From NCBI RefSeq assembly GCF_018860745.1, contig NZ_JAHKPY010000012.1, forward strand, positions 558,001 to 622,000: a stretch of 64,000 nt of DNA, read 5' to 3'. The notes under the pieces were generated by a model that did no database searches, was not told the origin of the DNA, and worked only from the letters and a program-made list of their open reading frames with translations. The position numbers were made by a program, and so were the translations under genes. Shown here one piece after another: positions 1 to 38,510 of the stretch; the stretch's first letter is position 1, and each line of letters begins with the position of its first letter. This stretch comes from Zobellia uliginosa (lineage in GTDB: Bacteria; Bacteroidota; Bacteroidia; Flavobacteriales; Flavobacteriaceae).

Positions 1-1926
1 TTGCCGGATGGTCATCCTGTATGGCTTTCATTTTATATAAAAGATGGTGTTCTTGATGGCGAAGCATGGTCCGTAGGCCTTGGCAATGCTATTTCTGAAT
101 TAAAAATCAATTCCGATACCCTTTATTTCAAAAGACTATATAAAGTTGGCGCACCCAATTTTCCTGGTGGCCCTCCAACAGGAAAAAAAGTTCCTGTTCA
201 AACCAGGGCAGTTGTTAAAGACGATAAGATATTTCTGTCTATGGACTGGCCCTTGTCTAATGGAACTACTAAAAAATTAGATTTTAAAGGTAAACGTTTA
301 CCTTCATTGCCTTCTAAACCAGATTTGGACAAAGTGAAATTTGGAGAACCGATTACTCTTTTCAACGGGAAGGATTTATCAGGATGGCGACTCACCAATC
401 CAAATCAAATTAATGGATGGAAAGCAGAAAATGGCATTTTAATAAACACCACTCCCAAACTTAATTTTGACCCTTTTTCAAAATATGGCAACCTTCGTAC
501 AAATGGTGAGTTTAAAGACTTTAATCTCCAACTAGAATTTAATGTGCCAACAGGTGGAAATAGCGGTATATATCTATGTGGAAGATACGAAACACAAGTA
601 GTAGACAGAGATAGTAGAATGCAAGGTTTGCAAGGTGTAGGTGCATTATTTGCTCGGATACCTCCTAGTGAAAATGCAGGTAAAGTTGGTGGTGAATGGC
701 AAAAATATGATATCACCTTAGTAGACCAACATGTGACCGTCATTCTCAACGGAAAAAAAGTAATAGATAACGAACTTATCCTAGGTGCTACAAAGGGCGC
801 ACTAAACGCAGATGATACCAAACCCGGACCAATTTACTTTCAGGGGGATCATACCGCGGTTAAGTATAAAAACATAGAACTTCGGCCACGTATCAATCCC
901 AATTATAAAAAACAAGGCACCGATACATTAGAATTTCTAAAGTTTGATGTTAATGGAAATGGGGCATTAGAACCAACGGAGATTCCTTTATTCGATCAAG
1001 ATGTTTTTGATCAAGCTGATTCGGATATTGACTGGCAATTAAGCGAAAAAGAATACAAAAGCTACCTGGCTTATGAAAAACGCATACAATCTGACCGTAC
1101 TTTGATTCCCGAAAATACTCAAATTTTTAGCGATGTACCGTATATTCTTGACGGTCACAATAGACATACCTTAGATATTTATCTACCGGATACTACAAAA
1201 TTCAAAAAACCCTATCCTCTTGTTGTATGGATTCATGGCGGAGGTTGGCAAAAAGGCACAAAAGACCTTTTTGGAAAGCAGGCGTTTCTATTAAAACATG
1301 GGTTTTCCATGGCTTCAATAAATTATCGCCTTACTAGAGAATCAGAATTTCCAGAACAAGTTTATGATTGTAAGGCAGCCATTAGATATCTTAGAAAATA
1401 CGCAGACCAGTATGGATTAGATGCTAATCATTTTGGATTATGGGGCTCTTCAGCTGGCGGGCATTTAGCCTCCTTGACAGGTACCACCAACAACTCAAAA
1501 GAATTAGAGGGAAGCCTTGGTGTAATCGATGCTTCTAGTGAGGTACAAGCCGTTTGTGTTTGGTTTGGCCCATCAGATTTAAATTTGATGAATACCTCTT
1601 CAACCGACAAATCAAAAGGCGAAAAACAAAACACAAAACCCATTATAAAATTCCTTGGAGGACCTTTCACAGAAAAACAAGAAGCTGCAAGAAAAGCGAG
1701 TGCCATAAACTATATTTCAAAAGACGACCCACCATTTTTAATTATGCACGGAGAAAAAGACCCTCTGGTACCCATAGAACAGAGTGCGCTGTTTTACAAA
1801 GCGCTTCAAAAACAAAATATTGATTCCGAATATATTTTGGTAAAAGATGGTATACACTCTTTTTTCATGGGTGTCAACAACCATAAAAAAGTGACAGAAT
1901 TCTTCAAAAATAAGTTAATGGACTAA
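1..1926 (+). CDS. DUF1080 / EF-hand / alpha-beta hydrolase fusion, 5' end cut by window
   Basis: The reading frame is open at the left edge, so the apparent TTG start is an artefact and the N-terminus is missing. Residues about 113-296 form a DUF1080 (3-keto-disaccharide hydrolase-like) jelly roll with the usual LFNGKDLSGW opening and GGNSGIYLCGRYE core. Residues 316-327 and 340-351 are two 12-residue EF-hand loops (D-x-N-x-N...E and D-x-D-x-D...E). Residues about 375-641 are a BD-FAE-type alpha/beta hydrolase with an HGGGW oxyanion loop, nucleophile Ser484 in GSSAG, likely Asp587 (GEKDPLVP) and His619. Family knowledge makes the C-terminal part a carbohydrate esterase candidate. It sits 23 bp before the first sulfatase and probably shares its transcript. 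The domain calls are firm; the substrate is inferred only from the neighbours. Confidence 0.85.
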   Translation: MPDGHPVWLSFYIKDGVLDGEAWSVGLGNAISELKINSDTLYFKRLYKVGAPNFPGGPPTGKKVPVQTRAVVKDDKIFLSMDWPLSNGTTKKLDFKGKRLPSLPSKPDLDKVKFGEPITLFNGKDLSGWRLTNPNQINGWKAENGILINTTPKLNFDPFSKYGNLRTNGEFKDFNLQLEFNVPTGGNSGIYLCGRYETQVVDRDSRMQGLQGVGALFARIPPSENAGKVGGEWQKYDITLVDQHVTVILNGKKVIDNELILGATKGALNADDTKPGPIYFQGDHTAVKYKNIELRPRINPNYKKQGTDTLEFLKFDVNGNGALEPTEIPLFDQDVFDQADSDIDWQLSEKEYKSYLAYEKRIQSDRTLIPENTQIFSDVPYILDGHNRHTLDIYLPDTTKFKKPYPLVVWIHGGGWQKGTKDLFGKQAFLLKHGFSMASINYRLTRESEFPEQVYDCKAAIRYLRKYADQYGLDANHFGLWGSSAGGHLASLTGTTNNSKELEGSLGVIDASSEVQAVCVWFGPSDLNLMNTSSTDKSKGEKQNTKPIIKFLGGPFTEKQEAARKASAINYISKDDPPFLIMHGEKDPLVPIEQSALFYKALQKQNIDSEYILVKDGIHSFFMGVNNHKKVTEFFKNKLMD

Positions 1927-1949
1927 GGTCAAACTAAGAAACAACAAAG

Positions 1950-3479
1950 ATGAACAAGCACATATTAAATATTATTTTGGGATTACTATGCGTAGGATTT
2001 GCTTCTGCACAAAAAAATGAACGCCCTAATGTGGTTATTATTTATGGGGATGATGTAGGGTATGGCGATGTTGGTGCCTATGGCTCAGAAATGATTCCTA
2101 CACCAAATATTGACAAACTTGCTGACGAAGGAATACGCTTTACCGATGGTCATTGCTCTGCAGCCACGTGCTCTCCTTCAAGATATTCTTTGCTTACCGG
2201 AATTCATGGCTTTAGAGATGGTATTAATGTACTTCCACCCAACGCACCGTTAACTATTTCTACCGATGCTCTTACTTTACCCAAACTCTTTAAAAAAGCG
2301 GGGTATGCCACAGCCGTAATTGGAAAATGGCACTTGGGTATTGGCGCAAAAGACACACCTACGGACTGGAATGGTGTCGTTAAACCGGGTCCTCTGGAAG
2401 TTGGTTTTGACAGTAGTTTTTTACTTCCCTCTACCAATGATAGAGTGCCTTGTGTTTATTTAGATGGACACCAAGTAGTTGATCTTGACCAGAAAGACCC
2501 TTTGTATGTGGGTAGAAAACTTACGGATGTTCAAAATAAAAAGAACACTTCCTATCCGGATGGAATAACTAATCCAGAGGCCATGACGTACTACCAAAGT
2601 TCGTCAGGTCATAACAACAGCGTAATTAATGGTATTGGAAGAATAGGATATATGTCCGGTGGAAAATCCACACTTTGGAATGACGAAAACATGTCGGACG
2701 AATTTGTAAAACAGACTAGAAAATATATAAGTGATAATAAAGATAAACCCTTTTTTCTGTACTACGCAGCACAGGACGTTCACGTTCCCAGAACGCCGCA
2801 CCCTAGATTTAAGGGCACTACAGAATTAGGTTATCGCGGAGATGCTATGGTCCAATTTGATTGGGCTACTGGAGAAATATTAAAAGCCTTGGAAGAAGCG
2901 GGAATAGCAGATAACACCATCGTGATATTTTCAAGTGACAACGGCCCTACCTATGATGACGGCTATGATGATGGAACCACTATTGACCGTTCAAACGGAG
3001 AAAACGACCGTGGTCATGATGCTTCCGGAATTTATCGCGGTGGGAAATACCAAATTTATGAGGGCGGTACACGAGTACCTCTTATTATCCGTTGGCCAAT
3101 AAAAATCAAACCAATGATATCTAACGCAATGGTCAGTCAAATCGATTTTCTTGCTTCTTTTGCTGAATTTTTGGAACAAGATATTCCAAAGGGCGAAGGG
3201 CGAGATAGCCGAAATACACTAGCTGCTTTCATGGGCGAAGACCTAAAAGGATTACCTTTTATGATTGAAGAAACACGCACGCAACATGCCCTTCGTTCAG
3301 GAAATTGGAAATATGTTATTGGCCCAAAGAAAAAACAAAAAGACACCGGTCCGGAACTCTACAATTTAAAAACGGATCCGGGAGAACAAAACAACTTAGC
3401 ACATTTACACAAAGATATTGCTGAAAGAATGGATAAGCAGTTACACGAACTGATTTCAGGTGATGGTTTAAGGAGATAA
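1950..3479 (+). CDS. secreted S1-family sulfatase (sulfatase 1)
   Basis: Formylglycine-dependent sulfatase of 509 residues with a short signal peptide ending near FASAQ. The metal-binding GDDVGYGDVG segment follows, and the maturation motif is CSPSR with Cys74 as the residue expected to become formylglycine. The GKWHLG lysine/histidine block and the SSDNGP metal site are present. It should act in the periplasm or on the surface, removing a sulfate ester from a galactan fragment. It is the last gene before the susC promoter region, so it belongs to the upstream transcription unit with the DUF1080 fusion. The exact S1 subfamily and regiospecificity cannot be read from the sequence. Confidence 0.93.
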   Translation: MNKHILNIILGLLCVGFASAQKNERPNVVIIYGDDVGYGDVGAYGSEMIPTPNIDKLADEGIRFTDGHCSAATCSPSRYSLLTGIHGFRDGINVLPPNAPLTISTDALTLPKLFKKAGYATAVIGKWHLGIGAKDTPTDWNGVVKPGPLEVGFDSSFLLPSTNDRVPCVYLDGHQVVDLDQKDPLYVGRKLTDVQNKKNTSYPDGITNPEAMTYYQSSSGHNNSVINGIGRIGYMSGGKSTLWNDENMSDEFVKQTRKYISDNKDKPFFLYYAAQDVHVPRTPHPRFKGTTELGYRGDAMVQFDWATGEILKALEEAGIADNTIVIFSSDNGPTYDDGYDDGTTIDRSNGENDRGHDASGIYRGGKYQIYEGGTRVPLIIRWPIKIKPMISNAMVSQIDFLASFAEFLEQDIPKGEGRDSRNTLAAFMGEDLKGLPFMIEETRTQHALRSGNWKYVIGPKKKQKDTGPELYNLKTDPGEQNNLAHLHKDIAERMDKQLHELISGDGLRR

Positions 3480-3761: not shown

Positions 3762-6700
3762 ATGAAACACAAAAAACAATCAATCAAAAAACCCTTATTA
3801 CTGCGGCTGGGATTATCCTTTTTAGGGCTCTTTCTAGCAACAATGCAAATACATGCCCAAGACGGTACCATTACCGGTACTGTTTCGGATGATACTGGAA
3901 TGCCTTTGCCAGGTGCAAACGTTTTAGTAAAAGGAACAACAACAGGTACGCAGACAGATTTTGATGGAAACTATTCCATCTCGGCTTCTAGCGATGCCAC
4001 TTTAGTATTTAGTTACATCGGTTTTTCAACACAAGAAATACCGGTAAACGGTCAAGCTACTATTGATGTTGCCCTTGCAGAAGACGCAAGTAAACTAGAA
4101 GAAGTAGTCGTTGTAGGTTACGGTCAACAAAAAAGAGTAAACCTTACCGGTTCGGTAGCCGCAGTAGATGAAGAAGCTCTAGAAGACAGAAACGTACAGA
4201 ATGCGTTTCAAGCACTTCAGGGTCAAGCGGCAGGTCTACAGATTTCTCAAAACAGTGGTGCCCCAGGTAATGAAGGTTTGAACATTAACATTCGTGGACT
4301 CAACTCTTTTGGTAGTAATAACTCACCCTTAGTACTAATTGATGGGGTTGAAGGTAACCTACAGGATTTAGACCCATCGGTCATTAGTTCTATTTCTGTT
4401 TTAAAAGATGCTTCTTCTGCAGCTATTTATGGTTCCAGAGCAGCAAATGGTGTTATTCTAGTAACGACTAAAAGCGGAGGAAACAACGTTTTTAAAATTG
4501 AATATAATGGTAGCGTATCCACAGAAACGTTTACCAAGGTTCCTCAAATGATTTCGAATTCTGCCGATTACATGACATTGATGAACCAAGCGTTGATAAA
4601 CACGCCTGGTGCCTCGGCAAATCCGTATCCGCAAGAAGTAATCGATGCTTATAGAAATAACCAGGGCAACCCTGCTTATCCAAATACAGATTGGTTTGAT
4701 GAAGCGTCTAGAACCCCAATTGTTCAACGCCATGTGGTTACAGCTAGTGGTGCCATAGAAGGTACTAGCTACAATATTTCCGTAGGTAACTGGGATCAAC
4801 CTGGTATCATCCGTTCTTCAGGATTTAAGAAAAACAACTTCTTTATGAGCGTGAAGTCGGATATAGGAGAAAAGCTTACTGTAGGTGGTACAGTATCTGG
4901 CGTAGCTTCTAAAACAAGTGGACCTCAACAAGCAGGCACAGAATCTGGCTTATTCAATTTATTTAGAGTTAGACCAACTTGGGGTGTATATACCTTAGAT
5001 GGTACAGGAAATTATTCCGGAAAAGCGTTCTCTGGCACAGACACAGAATTCCCAGGTTTTGATGAAGGTTTTACCAGAAACAACCCTATTGCAGAACTTG
5101 AGGTTCAGGACGGTGAAGTTTTAAACCAATATAACTTTAACGGGAACCTGTTTTTTGACGTTAAGCTTTCAGATGATTTGGTTTGGAGTACAAAAGGAGC
5201 TTATAAGTTTGATTACGATTATTACAAAAACCAACGTATTCAATATGATGAATACAACTATAGAACCGGTGAATACCTTAGAACTACGCGTGACCAGTCT
5301 CAATTGACCGTAGATAACGTATGGAGTAAGCAAACTACGCTCTTCTCTACCCTTACTTACTCAAAATTAGTTGGCGATCATGACTTTAAAGTATTGGGTG
5401 GGTATAGTCAAGAAGGTTTTGACCGAAGTTTTACGCGATCGCAGAGAACCGGTATCCCAAACCGCAACATTACAGATTTAGAAGGTGTAAATTCAGAAAA
5501 TCAGTTTACAACAGGCTTTTCCGAAAGCTGGGCTATTCAGAGTTTCTTCGGTAGAGCCAATTACAACTATAAAGAAAAATACCTCATTGAAGCGAATATA
5601 AGGGGAGATATCAGCTCTCGTTTTGCAAAAGGAAACAGACTTGGGGTTTTTCCTTCGGTCTCTGCCGGTTGGAGATTGGACAAGGAGAGTTTCTTTGAAA
5701 ATATAGAAGCCGTAAGCGAACTTAAACTTAGAGGTTCATGGGGACAACTAGGTAACCAGAATATTGGTTTGAACGTTGCGGATGATGAGTTAAACTCAGG
5801 TATCTACCCTTATCAATCAACACTATCGTTTGACCAATTTGGATATCCTTTTGGCACCAGTGTTCTTGCCGGTGTAGGTCTTAGAAGCCTAGTAGATTCA
5901 GATATCACTTGGGAAACTACTACGGTAACGGATTTTGGTGCAGATTTCAGCCTCTTCAACCGAAAACTTTATGGCTCCGTGGATTACTATATAAAGGAAA
6001 CGGTAGACATCTTAAGACAATTACAAGTTGATGAAAGTAGTGGACTGGATGCTCCTGTCGTTAATCAGGGCGCAATGACCAACAAAGGTTGGGATATCGT
6101 TATAGGCCACGACAATAACATAAATGAAGATTTGCGTTATAGCATAAACGGAAACGTATCTTGGTTTAAAAACCGTCTAAAAACTTTTGGAGATCAGGAA
6201 ATACAGGCCCGAAATATAAACGAAGAGGGTTATGCCTTTGAGGATTGGTATATGTGGGAATCCGATGGTTATTTCCAAGATGAAAATGAAATAGCAAATT
6301 CTGCGGTTCAGCCACAACCTGGAAAAGTAGGTTTTATTAAATTAAAAGATCAAAACAATGATGGTGTTATTGATGGAGATGACCGTATTCACATAGATGG
6401 CAGGTACCCTGCTTTTGTATACGGACTTAACCTTTCCGTAAATTACAAGAATCTCGATTTTAGAATGTTCTGGGAAGGCGTTGAAGGAACCAAAAACTAC
6501 ATTGCCCGTGACCCCTTTAGACAAGATGGAGGTACCGATGTTGCTTGGTTAACGGAAGCATGGACTCCTGATAATAGAAACTCTAGATTACCTGCCGTAT
6601 ATTACGAAACTGCCGAAACACGTAGATCTACCGTATATAACAACTCTTTCTGGTTATGGGATACCTCCTATTTAAGGCTTAGGAATGTTACTTTGGGGTA

Positions 6701-6881
6701 TTCGTTATCTACAGAAGTATTGGACAAAACACCGTTCAACAAGTTAAGATTCTATTTCGCTGCGGAAAACTACCTTACTTTTCAAAAAGATTATCCAATT
6801 GATGTAGATCCAGAAGCAAATGGTGTAGATGCCTACCCATTTAGAAAGACATTAACACTAGGTGTAAACATGACATTTTAG
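3762..6881 (+). CDS. SusC-like TonB-dependent outer-membrane transporter
   Basis: Outer-membrane importer of oligosaccharides, 1039 residues. A signal peptide ending near HAQ is followed by a carboxypeptidase-regulatory-like domain at about 34-110. The SusC-type signature LEEVVVVGYGQQK comes next, then the plug domain with the NIRG and LIDGVEG motifs typical of SusC. The remainder is a 22-strand-type barrel ending in an aromatic residue (NMTF). The susD partner starts 21 bp downstream. Length and architecture are normal for the family. By co-occurrence it should import the oligosaccharides that the surrounding sulfatases and galactosidases process. Confidence 0.95.
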   Translation: MKHKKQSIKKPLLLRLGLSFLGLFLATMQIHAQDGTITGTVSDDTGMPLPGANVLVKGTTTGTQTDFDGNYSISASSDATLVFSYIGFSTQEIPVNGQATIDVALAEDASKLEEVVVVGYGQQKRVNLTGSVAAVDEEALEDRNVQNAFQALQGQAAGLQISQNSGAPGNEGLNINIRGLNSFGSNNSPLVLIDGVEGNLQDLDPSVISSISVLKDASSAAIYGSRAANGVILVTTKSGGNNVFKIEYNGSVSTETFTKVPQMISNSADYMTLMNQALINTPGASANPYPQEVIDAYRNNQGNPAYPNTDWFDEASRTPIVQRHVVTASGAIEGTSYNISVGNWDQPGIIRSSGFKKNNFFMSVKSDIGEKLTVGGTVSGVASKTSGPQQAGTESGLFNLFRVRPTWGVYTLDGTGNYSGKAFSGTDTEFPGFDEGFTRNNPIAELEVQDGEVLNQYNFNGNLFFDVKLSDDLVWSTKGAYKFDYDYYKNQRIQYDEYNYRTGEYLRTTRDQSQLTVDNVWSKQTTLFSTLTYSKLVGDHDFKVLGGYSQEGFDRSFTRSQRTGIPNRNITDLEGVNSENQFTTGFSESWAIQSFFGRANYNYKEKYLIEANIRGDISSRFAKGNRLGVFPSVSAGWRLDKESFFENIEAVSELKLRGSWGQLGNQNIGLNVADDELNSGIYPYQSTLSFDQFGYPFGTSVLAGVGLRSLVDSDITWETTTVTDFGADFSLFNRKLYGSVDYYIKETVDILRQLQVDESSGLDAPVVNQGAMTNKGWDIVIGHDNNINEDLRYSINGNVSWFKNRLKTFGDQEIQARNINEEGYAFEDWYMWESDGYFQDENEIANSAVQPQPGKVGFIKLKDQNNDGVIDGDDRIHIDGRYPAFVYGLNLSVNYKNLDFRMFWEGVEGTKNYIARDPFRQDGGTDVAWLTEAWTPDNRNSRLPAVYYETAETRRSTVYNNSFWLWDTSYLRLRNVTLGYSLSTEVLDKTPFNKLRFYFAAENYLTFQKDYPIDVDPEANGVDAYPFRKTLTLGVNMTF

Positions 6882-6902
6882 TCAATCAAAAAATAATATA
6901 TA

Positions 6903-8441
6903 ATGAAAAAGACAATCATATTATTCGCACTATCCTTTCTGGGGATTTCGATAAGTTCGTGCGAGGACGACTTTTTAGACAAGCAGCCTACTTCTCAACT
7001 CTCTTCCGATTCTTTTTGGCAGACCGAAGCAGATGCGGAACTAGCATTAACCGGTGTATACAGTAATTTACAACAGAACATGTTGGCTATTCGCGCCGAT
7101 GGTGGATGGCCTCCAACCATTAAACCAAACTGGGATGCCCTAACCGACGATTCTTACCAGACATTTAACTATGGCTTTAGAGAACTTATTGATGGTACGG
7201 CCACTCCAACATCAGGTGGTACAAATGGTGCAATAGCCCAATTGTATAGTGTATGTTATAAAGGAATACAGACCTGTAATTTCTTTTTGGCCAATATAGA
7301 ACAAGTGGAAAATATTGAGGCTGATAAGCTAAATGATTGGAAAGGTCAGGTTAGAACTCTGCGTGCTTTTTTCTATTATAATCTAGTGACTACATACGGA
7401 GAAGTTCCTCTTAGGATAGAACCCACTACCTTAGAAAATCAGGATTTAGCTAAAAGCCCTGAAGCAGATATTTTCGCTCAAATTGAAGAAGATTTACAGT
7501 TTGGAGTTGCAAATCTTTCAGAAGCTCCATATGGCGATGGTTATGTTGTAAAAGGATCTGCCAATGCATTATTGGCACGGACCTACCTTTACCAAGGTAA
7601 ATATACAGAAGCGGCAGAAGCGGCTAAAGCAGTTATAGATGGAGGAAGCTTTGCGTTGTCACCAAACTATGAAGACCTTTTTATTGATGGAGGACAAGTA
7701 GATAATCCAGAAATCATTTTCTCTACAAAATATTCAAGTGCTCCGGGAGAGTTTCAAGATAGAGGTAGTGAAATCATGATCGGTTTTTGGGGGACCCTTA
7801 AACCAACAGAAGATTTTGTGAATTCTTTTGAAGCCACCGATGGTTTACCAATAGACGAATCTCCTCTATACGATGAAACCAATCCATTAGAAAATCGAGA
7901 CCCAAGGCTTAGTAAAATTGTACTTGAGGGCGAGTGGAACCCAGAAATTGAGCAAAAAACACTATCAGGTTTTGGATTATTAAAATGGATCAGCCCAGCC
8001 ACAAGAGCCTCTTTCGTACAGAACTTTACCGAAGGTACCGATTATATTCACATCCGTTATGCAGATGTACTTTTAATGTATGCAGAAGGCAAGATAGAAT
8101 CCGGAAGTATTGATACGTCGGTATTAGATGCTATAAATCAAGTAAGAGCCAGGGCTTACGGTGTGGCTGTAGGTGACACCGGTTCGTACCCAGCAATTAC
8201 AACTACAGACCAAGGCGAACTTCGTGAAGCTGTTCGTAACGAACGTAGATACGAATTTGGTTTTGAAGGCTTACGATACTTTGACCTGAAACGTTGGGGT
8301 ATAGCAGAAGAAGTGTTAAATGGTTTTTATGATGCGCATGTAGATGCCAATAGAGTGTTTTTACCTAAGCATTACAAATGGCCATTACCACAAAGCGCTA
8401 TAGATAAGAATACTGCTTTAGAACAAAATCCCGATTACTAA
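6903..8441 (+). CDS. SusD-like surface glycan-binding lipoprotein
   Basis: RagB/SusD family lid lipoprotein, 512 residues. The N-terminus has a lipobox ending SISSC followed by EDDFLDKQPTSQLSSDSFW, the classic SusD opening. Tetratricopeptide-like segments (KGSANALLARTYLYQGKYTEAAEAAKAV) and the C-terminal RNERRYEFGFEGLRYFDLKRWG motif are present. It forms the extracellular lid of the SusC transporter encoded just upstream. A strong hairpin follows its stop codon and may separate susCD from the enzyme genes. Confidence 0.95.
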   Translation: MKKTIILFALSFLGISISSCEDDFLDKQPTSQLSSDSFWQTEADAELALTGVYSNLQQNMLAIRADGGWPPTIKPNWDALTDDSYQTFNYGFRELIDGTATPTSGGTNGAIAQLYSVCYKGIQTCNFFLANIEQVENIEADKLNDWKGQVRTLRAFFYYNLVTTYGEVPLRIEPTTLENQDLAKSPEADIFAQIEEDLQFGVANLSEAPYGDGYVVKGSANALLARTYLYQGKYTEAAEAAKAVIDGGSFALSPNYEDLFIDGGQVDNPEIIFSTKYSSAPGEFQDRGSEIMIGFWGTLKPTEDFVNSFEATDGLPIDESPLYDETNPLENRDPRLSKIVLEGEWNPEIEQKTLSGFGLLKWISPATRASFVQNFTEGTDYIHIRYADVLLMYAEGKIESGSIDTSVLDAINQVRARAYGVAVGDTGSYPAITTTDQGELREAVRNERRYEFGFEGLRYFDLKRWGIAEEVLNGFYDAHVDANRVFLPKHYKWPLPQSAIDKNTALEQNPDY

Positions 8442-8507
8442 TTACATTAAAAACATGAGAACATTAACACATCTGTTTTTGTTGAAAATGTTGAGTTAGT
8501 TTTTTTT

Positions 8508-8541: not shown

Positions 8542-8593
8542 TGTCTTTACAATTAATAAATAGTATTTTCAATTTCCCTTTGATAGTCAAAAT

Positions 8594-21113: not shown

Positions 21114-21129
21114 AAAGGACTATAATCAA

Positions 21130-22470: not shown

Positions 22471-22509
22471 ACCAAATACACAGAGATATAATACATGAAA
22501 TTGGAAGCA

Positions 22510-26802: not shown

Positions 26803-27099
26803 GAAACCAGTATTGAATTATAGCTCATACGAGCAAAGCATAAATATAATTTGAAGTAAATGAACAGGTGTACATAAGAATACAAGAAATGTATTGTGGA
26901 GTACAAATTCTGCCTAACTTATGATCAATTTGCTTTAACTATGCAACATATGGTCAAGGGCATAAACTATACGAGGTAAAATAACTACATTGCCTAGTGC
27001 TTTACTTTGTAGGATATTGGACTAACAATACAACTTATTTTAAGTAGTTGTAAAACCCAAAAATTGATCATATCGATTTTAAAATTAAAGAACACCACT
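26803..27099. other. divergent intergenic region between barrel protein and sulfatase 7
   Basis: A 297-bp AT-rich gap that must hold both promoters. I see no exact TAnnTTTG element with a well-spaced TTG. A CTTTAAC heptamer at 26933-26939 matches the reverse complement of the GTTAAAG repeats found upstream of the GH2 gene, which may be a shared regulator site or chance. No small gene is supported. Confidence 0.4.
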
Positions 27100-30446: not shown

Positions 30447-32722
30447 AAAACCGATTTCAGTATGTATTCTTCTTTTCCTTACTAACATTAGCGTGTTACG
30501 CCCAAAAAGCCAACAAAAATGACGGGGACAAACGCCCCAACGTAATTCTAATTATGGTAGATGACTTAGGGTATGAAGGAATTGGCAGTTACGGCGGAAC
30601 TTCTTACCATACACCAAATATTGACAAGCTTGCCGCAACCGGTATGCAGTTCAACCAAGCGTATGCCCAACCGCTTTGTACGCCTACCAGAGTAAAACTT
30701 ATGACGGGACAGTACAATTTTAGGAATTGGGAAGCCTTTGGAATTTTGAATCCACAGCAAAAAACATTTGGCCATATCATGCAAGACGCTGGTTATGCTA
30801 CCTGTATGGTAGGAAAATGGCAACTACAAAGTTATGACCCACCCGGTTATCCCGGAGGTGAACACAGAAGAGGAATAGGTATGAAAGTAGAAGATGCTGG
30901 TTTTGATGAATACAGTATGTTCCATGCTTTTCATACGGAAGATAAAGGCTCTCGTTTTGCCAACCCTACCATTTATCAGAATGGGGAATTTCTAACCGAA
31001 ACGGACGGTAAATACGGTCCTGATATTTTTTCGGAATATTTAAACGATTTTGTTGCCCGCCAGGCGGATAAACCATTTTTTGTGTATTACCCTATGGCTT
31101 TGACACACGGTCCTTTCAACCCTACGCCCGAAAGCAAAGACTGGAAATATCCTGAAAAAAGATTGGACGAGGATACTACCTATTTTAAAGATATGGTGGA
31201 GTATCTAGATAAAATTATTGGTGACATTGTTTATAATCTTGAGAAGAAAGGGCTTCGTGAAGACACCCTTCTCATGTTATATTCCGATAATGGCACGCAC
31301 CAAACCATCTTTTCCAAGATGGGAGATCGCACGGTTCAAGGAGGTAAAGGATTAACCACAGAAGCTGGCATTAAAGTTCCGTTTATTGCCAACTGGCCCA
31401 ATCATATAAAAGCCGGTACTACATCAAACGAATTTATTGATGCTATAGATTTTATGCCAACCATTTTGGAAGCTACAAACACCCCTTCTCCAACTAGTTT
31501 TCAACCAGATGGCGAAAGCTTTTTACCGGTCTTAAAAGGAGAACCTGTTGAACGCAGGGATTGGGTATTTATGAGCTATGACCCTAAACCAGGTTGGGAC
31601 AAAAAGCAATTTGCGCCAGCGGAGTTCGTTCTAAACGAAAACTATAAGTTATATGGTGACGGCAGGTTTTATGATACTAAAAATGATGTTTTAGAAAAGG
31701 ACTCTCTACCAGAAACTAAGCTAAGCCCAGAGCTCAAGCAATTGAAATCAAAATTTAAAGTCGTATTGGATTCTCTAAGGAAATATCCAACATATGGATG
31801 GGTTGAGCGTTTGGCTCCTGAATTTGATTCTCTAGTTTCAAAACATGCCCGTATAGAATTGGTTGCCGAAGGATTTAATTGGTCCGAAGGTCCTGTATGG
31901 CTACCAAAAGAGCAGAAACTTATCTTTTCCGATGTTCCGGAAAACAAAATCTATGAATGGGACAATTTAGACGGATTAAGTCTATATATGGCTCCTTCCG
32001 GAGATACCGGCATCGAAAAGGGAAGTAACGGCAAAGGTTCAAACGGACTTATTCTTAACCCAGAAGGGGAATTAGTACTATGCCAAGTAGGCGACCGCAG
32101 AATTAGTAAACTTACAAGCTTAAAAGATTCGCATCACCCTAAATTTGAACCTGTAATTACTAATTTTAATGGCAAAAAGTTCAATTCACCTAATGATATG
32201 GATTATGACAAAAACGGTAATTTATATTTCACGGACCCATCTTTCGGTTTAGGTGATGCCAAAAGTGATATTGGTTTCAATGGTGTTTATTTCTATGGGA
32301 AAAATAAAGAATTGGTTCTTTTAGATGACTCCATAAAGGCCCCTAACGGTATTGCCGTATCCAATGACAATAAGACTTTATATGTTGCCGATTCTTTTAA
32401 GGAACAACCTAAAATCTTAGCATACGACATTGTTGGGAATGGGAAGGTATCCAACAAAAGACTATTTTTTGATGCCACTAAGCTGCATAAAGCAAGCATC
32501 AGCAAGCAATCTCCTGATGGAATGAAGATTGATGAGAAGGGAAACATTTTCTTAGCTGGTCCTGATGGCGTTTTAGTTATTTCTCCAGCAGGCAAACATC
32601 TAGGAACCATAAGAACCGATAAAAATACCGGTAATTGTGAATTCAGCGATAATGGAAGATACTTATTCATTACTGCAGATGATTACCTTTTGAGAGTTAA
32701 CCTAAGACCCTATTCCAAATAA
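30443..32722 (+). CDS. sulfatase fused to SMP-30/gluconolactonase-like domain (sulfatase 8)
   Basis: Two-domain protein of 759 residues. Residues 1 to about 450 are a sulfatase: signal peptide ending ACYAQ, VDDLGYEGIGSYGG, CTPTR with Cys79, GKWQLQ, and YSDNGTH. From about residue 468 an SMP-30/Gluconolactonase/LRE beta-propeller begins (LVAEGFNWSEGPVW, LIFSDVPENKIYEW, SPNDMDYDKNGNLYFTDPSFG), with the usual Glu and Asn/Asp metal-ligand positions. The open frame is continuous across the junction and has no second signal peptide. Lactonase activity would suggest that an oxidised sugar is opened after desulfation, but that is inference. It is coupled to the PhoD-like gene. Confidence 0.88.
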   Translation: MKNRFQYVFFFSLLTLACYAQKANKNDGDKRPNVILIMVDDLGYEGIGSYGGTSYHTPNIDKLAATGMQFNQAYAQPLCTPTRVKLMTGQYNFRNWEAFGILNPQQKTFGHIMQDAGYATCMVGKWQLQSYDPPGYPGGEHRRGIGMKVEDAGFDEYSMFHAFHTEDKGSRFANPTIYQNGEFLTETDGKYGPDIFSEYLNDFVARQADKPFFVYYPMALTHGPFNPTPESKDWKYPEKRLDEDTTYFKDMVEYLDKIIGDIVYNLEKKGLREDTLLMLYSDNGTHQTIFSKMGDRTVQGGKGLTTEAGIKVPFIANWPNHIKAGTTSNEFIDAIDFMPTILEATNTPSPTSFQPDGESFLPVLKGEPVERRDWVFMSYDPKPGWDKKQFAPAEFVLNENYKLYGDGRFYDTKNDVLEKDSLPETKLSPELKQLKSKFKVVLDSLRKYPTYGWVERLAPEFDSLVSKHARIELVAEGFNWSEGPVWLPKEQKLIFSDVPENKIYEWDNLDGLSLYMAPSGDTGIEKGSNGKGSNGLILNPEGELVLCQVGDRRISKLTSLKDSHHPKFEPVITNFNGKKFNSPNDMDYDKNGNLYFTDPSFGLGDAKSDIGFNGVYFYGKNKELVLLDDSIKAPNGIAVSNDNKTLYVADSFKEQPKILAYDIVGNGKVSNKRLFFDATKLHKASISKQSPDGMKIDEKGNIFLAGPDGVLVISPAGKHLGTIRTDKNTGNCEFSDNGRYLFITADDYLLRVNLRPYSK

Positions 32723-32728
32723 ACTGCC

Positions 32729-34234
32729 ATGTTCAAAAACCACACGTTACATTTAGTCCTAATATCCCTTCTATTTGTTTGCTCTTGTGCAGAGAAGAAA
32801 AAAGAAGAAACAAAAGTTACCGAAGAACGCCCTAACATAGTTTTTATAATTGCCGATGATATGGCCTGGGACGATAGCGGCGCCTATGGGCATCCAAACA
32901 TCAAAACTCCTAATATAGACCAATTGGCTGCAGACGGTATGCGTTTTGACAATGCATTCTTAACGGCAAGCTCATGCAGCCCAAGTAGGACGAGCATTAT
33001 AACCGGCCTATATCCTCATAATACGGATGCAGAGCAGTTGCATTGGCCTTTACCGGCAAGCAAGATAACTTTTGTTGAGGAATTGAAAAAGTCTGGCTAC
33101 TGGACGGCACAAGCAGGAAAATGGCATTTAGGAGATTCCATTAAAACCCGTTTTGACCTTGTAAAAGATGTGGGAACACATGGTTTTCAATTATCGCCTA
33201 CAGGCGAAAAAACAAAACAAATGGGTGATGGTAGTGGTTGCGAAGAATGGATACCTGTACTCAAACAAAGACCAGAGAACAAACCTTTCTTTTTATGGTT
33301 GGCAGCAGTTGATCCGCACAGACCTTACACAGAAGATATTATAGAAAACCCTCATGCTTTAGAAGATGTAATACTTCCTCCTTATTTTCCTGATACCAAA
33401 GAAGTGCGTGAGGATTTCACACATTATTACAATGAAATTACCCGTCTTGACAATTATGTTGGCAAAGTAGTAGCTGAATTGGACAAACAAGGGGTTTCTG
33501 AAAATACTATGATACTTTTCATTAGCGATAACGGTAGGCCTTTTCCGCGAGATAAGACTACTCTCTATGATGGAGGTATTAAAACACCTTGGATAGTAAA
33601 ATGGCCAAAAAAAGTTGCTGCAAATTCGGTTAACACAAACTTGGTAAGTTCCATAGATATTGCAACTACTTTCTTAAAACTAGCAGGCTTAGAGGCCTTA
33701 TCCAGTTTTGAAGGCGAAGACTTTTCTCCCTTGTTAGCCGATACAAAATCAAAAACAAGAGATTACATATATGCAGAAGACCATTGGCATGATTATGAAG
33801 ATTACACCAGAGCCGTTCGTACCGAAGAATTCAAATACATTCGCAATTTTTATACGGATTTGCCAAATACACCTTCGGCGGATGCGTTTATTGGCGGCAC
33901 CTTTAAGTCTATGCAGGAGTTAAAGAAAAAAGGGGAACTGAACGAAGCCCAAATGGCTTGTTTTATCACGCCTAGACAAGAAGAAGAATTGTATGATATT
34001 GTCAATGACCCTTACGAGCTTAAAAACCTTGCAAGCGACCCTTCACATGAGCAAACGCTGAAGGAACTACGTGCTGCACTGAATACCATTCGCAAAACAT
34101 CAAAAGATAGTATACCTAATTTTAGAACACCAGATGAGTTTGACCGTGAAACGGGAAAATCAAATTCGTTCAGAAAGCGGCCTCGACCTTCCAAGGTTGA
34201 AATGGAGAAAATCATACGTGCAATGGGTAAATAA
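32729..34234 (+). CDS. lipoprotein S1-family sulfatase (sulfatase 9)
   Basis: Sulfatase of 501 residues with a lipobox ending FVCSC, starting 6 bp after the fusion gene. ADDMAWDDSGAYGHPNIKTPN, CSPSR with Cys83, GKWHLGD and SDNGRPFPRDKTTLYDGG mark it as the heparan-sulfamidase-like branch, similar in layout to sulfatase 6. The C-terminus is basic (RKRPRPSKVEMEKIIRAMGK). It ends 10 bp before the convergent regulator gene. Confidence 0.92.
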   Translation: MFKNHTLHLVLISLLFVCSCAEKKKEETKVTEERPNIVFIIADDMAWDDSGAYGHPNIKTPNIDQLAADGMRFDNAFLTASSCSPSRTSIITGLYPHNTDAEQLHWPLPASKITFVEELKKSGYWTAQAGKWHLGDSIKTRFDLVKDVGTHGFQLSPTGEKTKQMGDGSGCEEWIPVLKQRPENKPFFLWLAAVDPHRPYTEDIIENPHALEDVILPPYFPDTKEVREDFTHYYNEITRLDNYVGKVVAELDKQGVSENTMILFISDNGRPFPRDKTTLYDGGIKTPWIVKWPKKVAANSVNTNLVSSIDIATTFLKLAGLEALSSFEGEDFSPLLADTKSKTRDYIYAEDHWHDYEDYTRAVRTEEFKYIRNFYTDLPNTPSADAFIGGTFKSMQELKKKGELNEAQMACFITPRQEEELYDIVNDPYELKNLASDPSHEQTLKELRAALNTIRKTSKDSIPNFRTPDEFDRETGKSNSFRKRPRPSKVEMEKIIRAMGK

Positions 34235-34244
34235 TGGAAAGCTT

Positions 34245-35396
34245 CTAAAAGCCGACTACCATTTCAAGGTTTAAATCAGTGTTGACCCTATGCTGTCCTT
34301 TTACTTTAAATAGTGCGGTGAAATACTTTTTACCCTTTAGATGTTCGTTTTCAAACTTCTGAAGGCTATCCTTGTTCGTGAAATATTCAACCGTTGCACT
34401 TACACCAATATCGTGCTGCGAAAAGAATACAAAATGATCCGAATTACCAATACTTGGATACTTGGATACGATGGCATATTCTTGATCTACCCTCGAACCT
34501 CCAAAAGTAAGTAGCGTGTCCTTTAAGATAGGGTGATTTGAAAGTTTCAAAGTTCTTGCGGTTAAGTTAAAATGAGGATTTGCCTCATTAAAAAAGCGGA
34601 TAAATTGATTCTCATTTTTCACTGGCCCCGCATAGATAGCATTGCCTTCCTTAATTTCTGGCAAAGTGGTTTGTGTAGAAAACCGAATTGAAAACTTACT
34701 ATTGTGTTCTTGAAAGAACTGTTGCAGTCTTTGGGTGGCCATTGCGGCCATCCGGGTAGTGTAACTATATTTTGAAGGTTGTAACACTCCTTTTAATTCG
34801 GGTTTTGCATCCAACCAATCATAAAATTCGTTTACCGTGTTTATCTCAAAGTCCCTAGTCCACCCTTTGCCTCCGGATATCGTTTGGCCCATAGCTCCAA
34901 AATGGTCCCCAAGAATTAGGTTTGTAGATTTTCCTGAATTCAAAAAGGAACTCCATAAAGGAGGTGTACTTGAAGGAAGATTAGTAATCACCAATGTTAC
35001 TATTGCTATAAATAAAAGTATGTACGGTATAATTCGTGACCAGTTTATAGTTTTTTGCTTTACAACAGGGGCTTTCTTTTCTACAAAGCGGACTTTATAT
35101 TGTCCCTTATCTATTTTTAGATGCCATCCATCCGCACTACCCTCCGTTTCGTAATACGTTGTCAATTTTTTTCTAAGGTTGTAAATATTTACTCTAACTC
35201 TGGGATTGTTCTTGTCATCGGTCTGATTGCTTTTAAAGAATTCCAGCTCAATAACTGCTTCTTTTAAGTGCGCACCCTTTCTTGTTGCATCGTAGAGGTA
35301 TTGCAGCAGACCTCTACTTGTAGGTGCATTCTTAAAGGTGTCACTCTCCTTTATTTTAGAAACGATTTCTTGTTCAATGCTTTCTGTCAATTCCAT
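34245..35396 (-). CDS. membrane-anchored winged-helix one-component regulator
   Basis: Protein of 383 residues with the DNA-binding domain at the N-terminus. Residues about 20-104 match the OmpR/ToxR-like winged helix seen in CadC-like and adenylate-cyclase-linked regulators (LKEAVIELEFF, then NPRVRVNIYNLRKKLTTYY, then IDKGQYKVRF). One membrane helix lies at about 121-140, followed by a periplasmic or sensor domain of about 240 residues with no family I recognise. This layout suggests direct signalling from the periplasm to DNA without phosphorelay. It is divergent from the GH2 gene across 206 bp and is the only regulator in the PUL part; no hybrid two-component system or sigma/anti-sigma pair is present. 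Confidence 0.8.
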   Translation of the reverse strand: MELTESIEQEIVSKIKESDTFKNAPTSRGLLQYLYDATRKGAHLKEAVIELEFFKSNQTDDKNNPRVRVNIYNLRKKLTTYYETEGSADGWHLKIDKGQYKVRFVEKKAPVVKQKTINWSRIIPYILLFIAIVTLVITNLPSSTPPLWSSFLNSGKSTNLILGDHFGAMGQTISGGKGWTRDFEINTVNEFYDWLDAKPELKGVLQPSKYSYTTRMAAMATQRLQQFFQEHNSKFSIRFSTQTTLPEIKEGNAIYAGPVKNENQFIRFFNEANPHFNLTARTLKLSNHPILKDTLLTFGGSRVDQEYAIVSKYPSIGNSDHFVFFSQHDIGVSATVEYFTNKDSLQKFENEHLKGKKYFTALFKVKGQHRVNTDLNLEMVVGF

Positions 35397-35430
35397 GTAA
35401 AATAGAGTTGGATAATTGATTCTAAGACTA

Positions 35431-35468
35431 CTTTAACCGTTATAGCTACCGTTAAAGAAGGGTTAAAG
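35431..35468. promoter_or_regulatory. GTTAAAG repeats, putative regulator site
   Basis: Between the divergent regulator and GH2 genes, GTTAAAG occurs at 35451-35457 and again at 35462-35468, exactly 11 bp apart start to start. An inverted copy CTTTAAC lies at 35431-35437. Direct repeats with an 11-bp period are the usual target of OmpR/PhoB-type winged helices, which is the family of the adjacent regulator. Confidence 0.45.
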
Positions 35469-35491
35469 TACTAAGAATAAAGCGTATATTA

Positions 35492-35499
35492 TACATTTG
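35492..35499 (+). promoter_or_regulatory. candidate -7 element for GH2 gene
   Basis: TACATTTG fits the Bacteroidota TAnnTTTG -7 box and sits in the string TTATACATTTG, also found upstream of susC at 3676-3686. No TTG lies at the standard distance; the GTTAAAG repeats occupy the place of the -33 box, as expected of an activator-dependent promoter. Confidence 0.4.
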
Positions 35500-35602
35500 T
35501 TTTGATGATTTAATACCTATTGCTTTTCCAAATTATCCATTTGTATAAAACGTACACAATAAACCAAAAGGTATTAAACTATAACCACTAAACTATCTAC
35601 CC

Positions 35603-38443
35603 ATGAGTATCCGTAAAATAAGTATTGCCCTAATCCTATGTCTACTTTGTGTATTTGGAGCAAATGCTATGCAGCAGGAAACAACGTTTACTGCAACTGA
35701 AAAAGTATATCTCTCCGGCACCGGGAAAGATGACATGGTAGACTGGGATTTCTTTTGTTCCGATGGAATGAACAGTGGTAAATGGACGACAATTGGCGTT
35801 CCTTCCTGTTGGGAATTACAAGGCTTTGGAAATTATAATTATGGCAAAGATGATTTTGCAATTCGGAAGAACGAATACGGACTCTATAAATATGAGTTTA
35901 ATGTTTCAAAAGAATGGAATAACAAAGAAGTGAAAATTGTATTTGAAGGGGTCATGACTGATGCCGAAGTGAAAATAAACGGAAAACTAGCGGGAGAAAT
36001 TCACCAAGGCGCTTTCTATGAATTCAAATATGACATAAGCAAACTACTGAAGTATGGCGAAAAGAACCTACTGGAAGTTAAAGTTAACAAAGCTTCGGCC
36101 AACACCTCTATTAACCATGCAGAACGTCAAGCAGATTTCTGGATTTTCGGAGGAATATTCCGACCAGTATATTTACAGGCCTATCCTAAGGACAATATTG
36201 AACGTGTAGCAATCAATGCCAAAGCCAGCGGTGAGTTGGAAGCTGATATTTATACTACATCCAAAAAAGCAGCATCGCTACAGTTATCATTATCAGATAT
36301 CAACCAAAAGAAAATACAGGATTTACCCGTTGTTAATATATCTAAAGAAAAGGGAAAGTGGCATATTTCTACAAAGGCGGATGATATAAAATCATGGAAT
36401 CCAGAATCACCTGAACTGTATTTTCTAAATGTAGCACTTCTGAATAAAAAGAGAGAGATTATTCATCAAATTTCTGAACGTATTGGTTTTAGAACAGTAG
36501 AAGTTTTAGAAGGAGATGGTATTTTTGTTAATGGGCAACGCATCAAATTTAAAGGTGTAAACAGGCATTCATTTTACCCTAGTTCCGGTCGTACTACATC
36601 AAAAGAACTCAGTATAGAACATATTAAAATGATGAAGGATATGAACATGAATGCTGTTCGTATGTCTCACTATCCGCCAGACGCTCATTTCTTAAATGCT
36701 GCAGATTCTTTAGGTCTTTTTGTAATAGACGAAGTATGCACCTGGCACTCTCCGCATTTAGATACTAAAGTAGGCCGTAAAATAGTGGAAGAAACCGTGG
36801 TTCGTGATGTAAACCATCCTTCTATTCTTCTTTGGGCCAACGGTAATGAAACAGGATGGAACAGAGAGCTAGATGATGATTATGCAAAGTGGGACATTCA
36901 GAAACGCGAGGTGATTCACCCTTGGAACATTTTCAGGAAAACCAATACTATGCACTACCCCAGCTATCATATTTTTGCATATGATACCTATGCCAAGGAC
37001 AAAATTTATTTTCCAACAGAGTTTCTACATGGCCTTTATGACGGTGGCCATGGCGCTGGTCTAGATGATTATTGGAAACAAATGTGGAATATGCCGTTAG
37101 CCGCAGGCGGATTTTTATGGGATTTTGCAGATGAAGCTGTTGTTCGTACAGATAAAAACAACATCTTAGATACCGATGGAAACCATGCCGCAGATGGTAT
37201 TGTAGGCCCTTATGGAGAAAAAGAAGCTAGTTATTTTACAATTAAAGAGGTATGGTCGCCTATTTACATTGAAGACCGTTACATCAAGTCAGATTTCAAC
37301 GGGATTTTCAGAATTGAAAACAGATTTCACTTTACCAATTTGAATCAGTGTAAAATGACCGCGAAATGGGTTGTCTTTGAAGGTCCTAACGGAAGTAACA
37401 AAGCAAAAACTATTTCAGAACAAAATATTGAATTACCGGATTTAGAACCAAGCAAAAAAGGAGAGTTCTTAGTTACTAGACCAGAAAACTGGATAGTAGC
37501 CGACGTATTATACATTACAGCAACCGATCCGCTAAACCAGGAAATTTTTACTTGGAGCTATCCTATAAACACTCCTAAAGAAGTAAATAAAAAAAATATA
37601 TCAACCACTAAAAAAAGTGGTATAACCACGGAAGCTATAAATGGTTCTATAGTGGTCAACGCGAATGGATTTCACTATAAATTTTCAGAAAAAACCGCCC
37701 TACTGAACGAAGTTAAGAAAGACGGAAAAATTATTCCTTTAAACAACGGCCCAATAATATTTGACCATAAAGACAAAATCGAATCACAAAACATATATAC
37801 TTTAAAAGATAGGATTGAAATTGTAACCGTATTTGAGGCTTCGGACAAATCACCTAACTGGGCAAGTCATAAGGAATACAGTTCAGATATTATAAAATGG
37901 ACTATTTATTCAGATGGATTACTGAACCTCAACGTAGAAATCAAAGGAAAAAAAATAGTGAAAGGTATAAAAGGGATTACTTTCTCTTTTCCTGAATCTG
38001 AAGTTTCCGGAATGAAATGGTTAGGTGATGGTCCATACCGTGTCTGGCGCAATAGAATGAAAGGCACCAAATTAAAGGTCTGGGAAAACGATTACAATAA
38101 TACAGTTACTGGAGAATCCGGCTTTGTGTATCCTGAGTTCAAAGGTTTCTATTCAAGTTTATATTGGGTGAAAGTAAAAGGGAAAAACAATAACGGATTC
38201 AATGTGTATTGCAATTCAGAAAACACCTTCTTGCGTATGTTGACACCTCAGCAACCAAAAGAAGACCCTAACCATAGAGTTTCGGTAGACTTTCCCAAGG
38301 GGGACATCTCATTTGTAAAAAACATTCCGGCTATTGGCACAAAATTCCAAGAAGGAGATAAAATGGGCCCACAAGGCAATTCAGAAAATTACTTCGGTAA
38401 TGACGATGAACCAATTAGTATAGACCTGACTTTTGAGTTCTAG
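35603..38443 (+). CDS. GH2 beta-galactosidase-like enzyme
   Basis: Secreted glycoside hydrolase of 946 residues with a signal peptide ending ANAM. It has an N-terminal GH2 sugar-binding jelly roll (PSCWELQGFGNYNYG), an immunoglobulin-like domain at about 200-300 and a TIM barrel (GVNRHSFYP, then NAVRMSHYPPD). The acid/base is Glu416 in NGNE and the likely nucleophile is Glu473 in PTEFLHG. A C-terminal bGal small-chain-like domain follows (LGDGPYRVWRNR). It would remove beta-linked galactose, complementing the GH110 enzymes on an alternating alpha-1,3/beta-1,4 galactan. It has its own promoter region shared with the divergent regulator and a terminator downstream. Confidence 0.9.
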   Translation: MSIRKISIALILCLLCVFGANAMQQETTFTATEKVYLSGTGKDDMVDWDFFCSDGMNSGKWTTIGVPSCWELQGFGNYNYGKDDFAIRKNEYGLYKYEFNVSKEWNNKEVKIVFEGVMTDAEVKINGKLAGEIHQGAFYEFKYDISKLLKYGEKNLLEVKVNKASANTSINHAERQADFWIFGGIFRPVYLQAYPKDNIERVAINAKASGELEADIYTTSKKAASLQLSLSDINQKKIQDLPVVNISKEKGKWHISTKADDIKSWNPESPELYFLNVALLNKKREIIHQISERIGFRTVEVLEGDGIFVNGQRIKFKGVNRHSFYPSSGRTTSKELSIEHIKMMKDMNMNAVRMSHYPPDAHFLNAADSLGLFVIDEVCTWHSPHLDTKVGRKIVEETVVRDVNHPSILLWANGNETGWNRELDDDYAKWDIQKREVIHPWNIFRKTNTMHYPSYHIFAYDTYAKDKIYFPTEFLHGLYDGGHGAGLDDYWKQMWNMPLAAGGFLWDFADEAVVRTDKNNILDTDGNHAADGIVGPYGEKEASYFTIKEVWSPIYIEDRYIKSDFNGIFRIENRFHFTNLNQCKMTAKWVVFEGPNGSNKAKTISEQNIELPDLEPSKKGEFLVTRPENWIVADVLYITATDPLNQEIFTWSYPINTPKEVNKKNISTTKKSGITTEAINGSIVVNANGFHYKFSEKTALLNEVKKDGKIIPLNNGPIIFDHKDKIESQNIYTLKDRIEIVTVFEASDKSPNWASHKEYSSDIIKWTIYSDGLLNLNVEIKGKKIVKGIKGITFSFPESEVSGMKWLGDGPYRVWRNRMKGTKLKVWENDYNNTVTGESGFVYPEFKGFYSSLYWVKVKGKNNNGFNVYCNSENTFLRMLTPQQPKEDPNHRVSVDFPKGDISFVKNIPAIGTKFQEGDKMGPQGNSENYFGNDDEPISIDLTFEF

Positions 38444-38476
38444 GAATAGCAGCTAAAGAGGATCTGGTATAAACTA

Positions 38477-38510
38477 AAAAGAGTCTTATCGGTTTCGACA
38501 AGACTCTTTT
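38477..38510 (+). terminator. intrinsic terminator after GH2 gene
   Basis: AAAAGAGTCTT and AAGACTCTTTT pair around a short loop (a stem of at least 11 bp ending in T). It marks the end of the PUL as seen in this window. Confidence 0.75.

Follow-up and report, generated by a model that had tools for sequence, protein, structure and literature searches.

The window considered here is the whole 64,000-nucleotide stretch of Zobellia uliginosa DNA that was analyzed, positions 558001 to 622000 of contig NZ_JAHKPY010000012.1 (C1) in a 4.86-Mb genome of 15 contigs. It carries a sulfatase-rich polysaccharide utilization locus (PUL) that is likely the greater part of the exo-acting side of a lambda-carrageenan system divided between two loci, and the probable ortholog of PUL23 of Zobellia galactanivorans. 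Pfam domain calls, made on 20 window proteins, identify nine sulfatases, two proteins of glycoside hydrolase (GH) family 110 (GLAA-B domain), one GH2, and one SusC/SusD pair, the same count that a first-pass annotation had read from the DNA letters. SusC and SusD lie side by side with carbohydrate-active enzymes, the arrangement of a SusCD-type PUL. The features, in window coordinates, are as follows; sulfatases are named below by their start positions.

1 to 1926, plus strand: fusion of a 3-keto-disaccharide-hydrolase domain and a BD-FAE esterase (PF06439, PF20434), 5' truncated; accessory, in none of three other Zobellia loci
1950 to 3479, plus strand: sulfatase of S1_15 type, predicted galactose-6-sulfatase (best solved relative S1_15B, 9bau); accessory in Zobellia
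3762 to 6881, plus strand: SusC-like TonB-dependent transporter (Pfam)
6903 to 8441, plus strand: SusD-like protein with a lipobox-like pattern (Pfam)
8594 to 10123, plus strand: S1_15-like sulfatase, nearest solved relative the N-acetylgalactosamine-6-O-sulfatase 6s20; kept in three Zobellia
10150 to 13512, plus strand: FG-GAP/UnbV-ASPIC (CRTAC-like) protein with a lipobox-like pattern (Pfam); accessory, in one of three Zobellia loci
13636 to 15117, plus strand: sulfatase of SGSH/S1_8 type (N-sulfoglucosamine sulfohydrolase 4mhx, then S1_8A), predicted to act at the 2 position, with a lipobox-like pattern; core
15127 to 16956, plus strand: GH110-1, GH110A type, predicted exo-6-sulfo-alpha-1,3-galactosidase (9beh, 800 bits); core
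17117 to 19000, plus strand: GH110-2, third GH110 branch, with Pro at the Arg460/Glu480 switch position
19032 to 21113, plus strand: sulfatase with a C-terminal PA14 domain (Pfam)
21088 to 22470, plus strand: sulfatase, nearest solved relative the kappa-carrageenan sulfatase S1_16 (longest open reading frame [ORF] begins at 21040); core, 59 to 66% identical in four of five GH150-linked loci
22495 to 23982, plus strand: sulfatase of S1_8 type (nearest S1_8A), predicted galactose-2-sulfatase; core, 69 to 75% identical in four of five GH150-linked loci
24073 to 26802, minus strand: outer-membrane beta-barrel protein with a carboxypeptidase-regulatory domain (Pfam); kept in three Zobellia
27064 to 28575, plus strand: sulfatase nearest 7ana/7an1 when compared by sequence with solved structures, with a lipobox-like pattern
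28605 to 30446, plus strand: PhoD-like phosphatase (Pfam); accessory
30443 to 32722, plus strand: fusion of a sulfatase and an SMP-30/gluconolactonase domain (Pfam)
32729 to 34234, plus strand: S1_8-like sulfatase (34% to the S1_8-type RS20500 of Pseudoalteromonas carrageenovora) with a lipobox-like pattern; last gene kept in all three Zobellia
34245 to 35396, minus strand: 383-amino-acid (aa) protein with no Pfam or NCBIfam match, in one of three Zobellia loci; probably outside the system
35603 to 38443, plus strand: GH2 of LacZ type (Pfam), not kept in the other Zobellia loci; adjacent, membership doubtful

Where does the locus begin and end? Position 1 of the window falls inside it and truncates the first ORF, an esterase fusion straddling the window edge whose complete gene is C1:557872-559926. 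Inspection of the genome to the left, a check that the first-pass annotation had called for, places the left end at C1:537389, 20.6 kb outside the window. This left part adds four sulfatases, a hybrid two-component system (HTCS) regulator, a GDSL esterase, a GH29, an unannotated 570-aa protein, a Tat-signal protein that is weakly alpha-galactosidase-like, a GMC oxidoreductase with its Gluconate_2-dh3 subunit, and two xylose-isomerase-like TIM barrels, so that the whole locus comes to about 55 kb and 13 sulfatases. When the 33 genes of C1:537389-598384 are compared with fetched stretches of three other Zobellia genomes (G236, G388, and G001), 22 have an ortholog of at least 70% identity in all three with gene order kept, and 12 of these 22 are sulfatases. 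The right edge of the conserved locus lies at about 34234. The interval first annotated, 1 to 38510, is confirmed in content; its left edge is truncated, and its right edge runs past the conserved genes. Those without an ortholog of at least 70% in any of the three Zobellia stretches are the GH2 at 35603, the 1950 sulfatase, the PhoD-like gene at 28605, and the esterase fusion at 1-1926. The GH2, which the first-pass annotation had counted as a member of the system, is thus absent from the conserved locus. A trehalase-family gene at 38783-40384 adjoins it, and neither has a 70% ortholog in the three other Zobellia loci.

One indication of substrate comes from GH110-1. GH110A is an exo-6-sulfo-alpha-galactosidase whose 6-sulfate pocket is formed by Arg460 and Thr498, and GH110B has Glu480 and Asp518 at those positions (PMC12549532). 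GH110-1 is 58 to 60% identical to GH110A of the solved lambda cascade, with 60% (BLAST) to that of P. carrageenovora, and its nearest solved relative is GH110A of the Pseudoalteromonas distincta lambda cascade (9beh, 9bev) at 800 bits, the next kind scoring 269. In an alignment of 96 GH110 proteins, whose rows are partly redundant where the same organism was reached twice (e.g., G001 and L027), the Arg460/Glu480 switch positions share one column. GH110-1 carries D, R, and T at the Asp324, Arg460, and Thr498 columns of GH110A. All 24 GH110A-type rows, GH110-1 included, have Arg in the switch column, with Thr (16 rows) or Ser (8 rows) at the second position. GH110-1 is accordingly assigned by sequence to the GH110A type and predicted to be an exo-6-sulfo-alpha-1,3-galactosidase. 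Elsewhere in the alignment the switch column holds Glu in six rows, among them P. carrageenovora GH110B, and Ser in two. Because the entire GH110-2 branch (64 rows, with GH110-2 among them) shows Pro rather than Arg or Glu in this column, GH110-2 classifies as neither GH110A nor GH110B but as a third branch, outside the published lambda cascade. Proteins of Zobellia amurskyensis, Z. russellii, and Z. barbeyronii are 88 to 89% identical to it.

The sulfatases fall into several subfamilies. Each of the nine window sulfatases carries a formylglycine-type motif (C-x-[PA]-[SATG]-R), and counting the whole locus the motif occurs in 12 of 13 sulfatases; the search found no match in C1:550512, left of the window. 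Comparison with solved structures covers six of the nine window sulfatases (1950, 8594, 13636, 21088, 22495, and 27064), while 19032, 30443, 32729, and the four left-hand sulfatases are placed solely by comparison with P. carrageenovora enzymes. The first-pass annotation had held that subfamilies specific to fucose or uronic-acid polymers would refute its galactan reading; of the six sulfatases compared with structures, five lie nearest S1_15, S1_8, S1_16, or 7ana/7an1, their nearest solved relatives being galactose, galactosamine, or otherwise named sulfatases, and the sixth, 13636, lies nearest an N-sulfoglucosamine enzyme. The 1950 sulfatase is 45% identical to both S1_15-type enzymes of P. 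carrageenovora, and identity to an S1_8-type enzyme is 41% for C1:550512, 37% for 22495, and 34% for 32729. In these comparisons the P. carrageenovora plasmid genes are assigned to published enzymes by gene order and PDB names rather than by locus tag, an assignment presumed to be right, as is the regiospecificity of the 7ana/7an1-like and S1_16 sulfatases. Several subfamilies being present fits the earlier suggestion of a substrate with sulfates at several positions. With a GH110A type and with S1_8- and S1_15-type sulfatases, the C1 locus holds this part of the enzyme set of a lambda-carrageenan PUL (lambda-CarPUL).

Does the locus keep company with lambda-carrageenases, the GH150 family? 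In a survey of 397 Flavobacteriaceae genomes (GH150 cutoff, E of 1e-30; GH110A type taken as at least 56% identity to GH110-1), GH150 occurs in 12 genomes of 11 genera and the GH110A type in 21. The GH110A type is found in 12 of 12 genomes with GH150 and in 9 of the 385 others (Fisher p of 1.1e-17, kinship ignored); with four Zobellia excluded, the figures are 11 of 11 and 6 of 382. A second sample is made up of 46 genomes, each selected for a GH110-2 relative (GH150 cutoff, E of 1e-20). Here, 32 have GH150, and the GH110A type is present in 31 of these (the exception being G412) versus 7 of the 14 without (p of 0.0004). Among those 31, GH110A and GH150 lie within 20 kb of each other in 24, about 48 kb apart in 2, and on different contigs in 5, including Z. 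barbeyronii.

The linked loci also share content with the window. At a threshold of 55% identity, the 13636 sulfatase (70 to 74% identical) and GH110-1 have orthologs in all of five GH150-linked loci; GH110-2 and the 21088 and 22495 sulfatases each have one in four. Three of them (G084, G323, and G168) show the gene order HTCS, GH150A, 13636-type sulfatase, and GH110A, with short ORFs interspersed, followed by 21088-type and 22495-type sulfatases and GH110-2; G084 also has a GH2 (Pfam). An eye count over 54 loci that have a GH110-2 relative gives both 21088-type and 22495-type sulfatases within 10-kb flanks in 29.

On the grounds of GH110A identity, pocket residues, the S1_8 and S1_15 sulfatases, co-occurrence with GH150, and the shared loci, the lambda-carrageenan-like substrate put forward in the first-pass annotation is probably right. 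One qualification is the GH29 at C1:552107, which may remove fucose or L-galactose, so that such a branch is possible. Sulfatases together with fucosidases are the signature of the loci of Z. galactanivorans for the fucose-containing sulfated polysaccharides of brown algae (PMC9296495), and these polymers could in principle be the target here; with GH110-1 identity, the S1_8/S1_15 assignments, and GH150 co-occurrence all indicating a galactan, this is very improbable.

As the first-pass annotation had observed of endo-enzymes and anhydrogalactosidases, no GH16, GH82, GH127, GH129, or lambda-carrageenase (CGLA) domain is found among the 20 window proteins scanned, and the scanned proteins of the C1 locus, left part included, contain no recognized endo-galactanase. 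When the two P. carrageenovora GH150 enzymes are used as queries against the genome, however, two GH150 genes come up, both on contig C12: 118992-121835, 47% identical to the CglA-type query, and 131418-134063, 51% identical to the other. Both carry Pfam lambda-carrageenase domains, and the stop inside the first match is the end of its 947-aa ORF. The search matched C12 only, so the C1 locus lacks the GH150 of a complete lambda-CarPUL. Between the C1 and C12 loci lie at least about 264 kb, as measured to the nearest contig ends. The stand-alone exo-acting system of the first-pass annotation is hence rejected for this genome, though it may hold for those Zobellia whose genomes carry the locus and give no GH150 match.

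The C12 genes belong to a second lambda-carrageenan locus (C12:118992-143599) with two GH150 genes, three sulfatases, a LacZ-type GH2, a SASA-family esterase, and SusCD. A GH110-domain search of the genome gives three genes above the cutoff (the two window genes and a C10 gene) and a weak match below it on C9, and a genome search with GH110-1 recovers the same three; neither finds a GH110 on C12. As far as a GH110 is needed, then, the alpha-1,3 step would come from the window locus or from C10. The C12 GH2 (C12:128096-131392) is 75% identical in one GH150-containing relative and is a better beta-galactosidase candidate than the window GH2. Z. barbeyronii (G437, L067) is a second Zobellia with GH150, which likewise lies on a different contig from the GH110 locus.

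How might two distant loci be coordinated? The HTCS heading the G084 locus has the C1 HTCS as its best match in the Z. uliginosa genome (51%; the next by score is 30%), and the C1 HTCS has no match among the ORFs of C12:98001-148000. For these two reasons, one HTCS (C1:537389) probably serves both loci.

Put together, the proposed cascade would run as follows. The C12 lambda-carrageenases, by analogy to P. distincta, would cut beta-1,4 links and release oligosaccharides with a nonreducing alpha-linked galactose-2,6-disulfate, which SusCD proteins would import. An S1_8-type sulfatase would remove the 2-sulfate, GH110-1 would free the terminal alpha-1,3-linked galactose-6-sulfate (Gal6S), and an S1_15-type enzyme would take the 6-sulfate, roles assigned by orthology. 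The beta-linked residue would then be removed by a further 2-sulfatase together with a beta-galactosidase, for which the C12 GH2 is the likeliest candidate, and the cycle would repeat. The HTCS at C1:537389 would probably induce both loci. The published cascade accounts for neither the excess of sulfatases nor the genes without an assigned role; of the latter, GH110-2, the 570-aa protein, the Tat-signal protein, the GH29, the GMC module, and several sulfatases may handle branches, other sulfation, or capped ends.

A number of observations weigh against this picture. The 13636 sulfatase matches SGSH (4mhx) at 307 bits and S1_8A only then, at 151 bits; N-sulfoglucosamine sulfohydrolase activity is among those counted under S1_8 in PMC12549532. 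Ten of the 13 sulfatases reach at best 26 to 36% identity to tested P. carrageenovora plasmid sulfatases. Six of those ten (C1:543344, 544845, 577032, 579040, 585064, and 588443) are nearest two plasmid sulfatases that we take to be iota-type 4-sulfatases, which tells against a locus devoted to lambda-carrageenan alone. Nothing in the characterized cascade corresponds to the S1_16-type sulfatase, the GH29, the GMC oxidoreductase, or the third-branch GH110. The genomes counted above are relatives of shared ancestry, a kinship that the Fisher values ignore. Stretches of 6 of the 12 GH150 genomes were fetched; the five counted were chosen for GH150-GH110A linkage, and the sixth, G036, which has its genes split over two contigs, does not enter the count. 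That C1 and C12 are co-regulated is something we infer. Finally, the three Zobellia with the same 22 genes (G001, G236, and G388) have no GH150 match at an E of 1e-30, meaning that the locus is kept there without a GH150 endo-enzyme.

This last point bears on two other explanations. The main substrate of the locus could be some other sulfated galactan or fucogalactan with the same alpha-1,3-linked galactose or Gal6S ends as lambda-carrageenan, GH110A having been recruited for both polymers; the GH29, the S1_16-type and kappa/iota-like sulfatases, and GH110-2 would then be its substrate-specific part. Besides the persistence of the locus in GH150-less Zobellia, the 90% conservation of the GH29 in the three Zobellia loci, the S1_16-type sulfatase in the core, the six sulfatases nearest kappa/iota-type enzymes, and the 14 of 46 GH110-2-relative genomes without GH150, Arenibacter included, all suit this idea. 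Set against them are the presence of GH110-2 and two sulfatases inside GH150-linked loci in four of five relatives, the failure to find a GH29 ortholog in the five GH150-linked loci, and the fact that Z. galactanivorans, with no GH150 in its genome, is nevertheless reported to use lambda-carrageenan as its only source of carbon (PMC6262041), a growth statement repeated in PMC5698469. On balance this first explanation is unlikely, though the likeliest of the rivals. The second explanation makes the locus a scavenger of oligosaccharides freed by other bacteria or by the C12 enzymes, without any attack of its own on the polymer. It would fit three Zobellia keeping the locus without GH150 and the lack of a recognized endo-galactanase among the scanned locus proteins, and it squares poorly with two GH150 genes in this genome and with that same reported growth on the polymer; we regard it as quite unlikely.

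If lambda-carrageenan is indeed the substrate, what opens the polymer in Zobellia without GH150? Genes without an assigned role that are kept in all three such Zobellia include the 570-aa protein, C1:548959, the third-branch GH110, and the GMC oxidoreductase with its small subunit. The 570-aa protein (C1:547239-548951) has no Pfam, NCBIfam, or PDB relatives, its one match being a weak one to CARDB at the C terminus. The three GH150-less Zobellia and G129 retain it, and at three loci relatives at 41 to 43% are found close to GH110-2 and an HTCS. The idea that it is strictly lambda-linked is weakened: 10 of the 20 genomes with relatives (among the 397) lack the GH110A type, and the closest relative outside the Zobellia and G129 loci (G383, 61%) lies far from the GH150 locus of its genome. 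That the Zobellia locus holds a GH150-independent route of lambda-carrageenan breakdown, with the 570-aa family as first candidate for the missing depolymerase or for an oxidative end-opening helper, is a doubtful but possible proposal. The Tat-signal protein at C1:548959, which is TIM-barrel-like, has a weak likeness to alpha-galactosidases. The GMC oxidoreductase as a GH150 substitute is likewise weakened, as its clade (at least 81% identity) occurs in 10 of 32 genomes tested for it, five of the 10 having GH150 (two Maribacter, two Cellulophaga, and Z. barbeyronii); the clade is linked to these loci both with and without GH150. The FG-GAP protein at 10150 is rejected as a general answer, being absent from two of the three GH150-less Zobellia loci.

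The GMC oxidoreductase, its small subunit, and the two TIM-barrel isomerase-like proteins (L013:7643-11845) are adjacent to the 3-keto-disaccharide-hydrolase/esterase fusion at window 1-1926. Judged by their family names, PF06439, GMC, and TIM-barrel proteins are presumably linked to an oxidative 3-keto route; a single combined literature search for such a route in sulfated-glycan loci gave nothing.

Beyond the locus, window 52072-54576 encodes a right-handed beta-helix protein with an F5/8-type-C domain and a type IX secretion tail. At 56233-57244, between polysaccharide-export and chain-length genes, an integrase-core (rve) ORF and an overlapping ORF without a Pfam match form a likely insertion element.

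Overall, these loci suggest that one lambda-carrageenan system can be divided into a distant endo locus and an exo locus, and that substrate calls made locus by locus miss half of it. Zobellia with and without GH150 offer a within-genus comparison that bears on the published question of the missing lambda-carrageenase, and GH110-2 points to an uncharacterized GH110 branch in many marine Bacteroidota. No later paper naming the missing Zobellia enzyme was found by title or abstract start in a search that most subscription journals lie outside of, and the words GH110 and lambda-carrageenan are absent from the excerpts of a Z. galactanivorans expression study (PMC5613140).

How does the C1 locus compare with known systems? 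PUL23 of Z. galactanivorans Dsij (ZGAL_2194-2203), with GH110 and S1_8 genes resembling lambda loci, was proposed for lambda-carrageenan in 2018, together with a lambda-carrageenase of a novel family (excerpts of PMC6262041). The C1 locus would be a better-resolved example of this already known kind. G388 holds 22 of its genes at 73 to 95% identity. We take G388 to be Z. galactanivorans, and on that condition the C1 locus is probably the ortholog of PUL23, a known but uncharacterized kind. Relative to PUL23, the Z. uliginosa genome adds the two C12 GH150 genes, a different SusCD pair, an S1_15-type sulfatase, and the keto-esterase fusion; beside the HTCS, the other three Zobellia have two genes that the C1 locus lacks, one SusC-like and one of about 600 aa. 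Like the GH150-linked loci of G084, G323, G168, and Flavobacteriaceae bacterium S85 (excerpts of PMC6262041), it has the HTCS, the 13636-type sulfatase, and the GH110A type, but GH150 is here at least about 264 kb away, in the C12 locus. The resemblance extends to the lambda-CarPUL of P. distincta U2A and to PUL8 and PUL9 of P. carrageenovora (PMC12549532 and PMC6262041), which share with Z. uliginosa the GH110A type, S1_8 and S1_15 sulfatases, a GH2, and two GH150 genes in the genome. Z. uliginosa differs from these Pseudoalteromonas systems in having 13 locus sulfatases rather than five, two loci, SusCD transport, GH29, and GMC genes, and neither of its GH110 proteins has the Glu switch of GH110B, with GH110-2 representing an extra branch.

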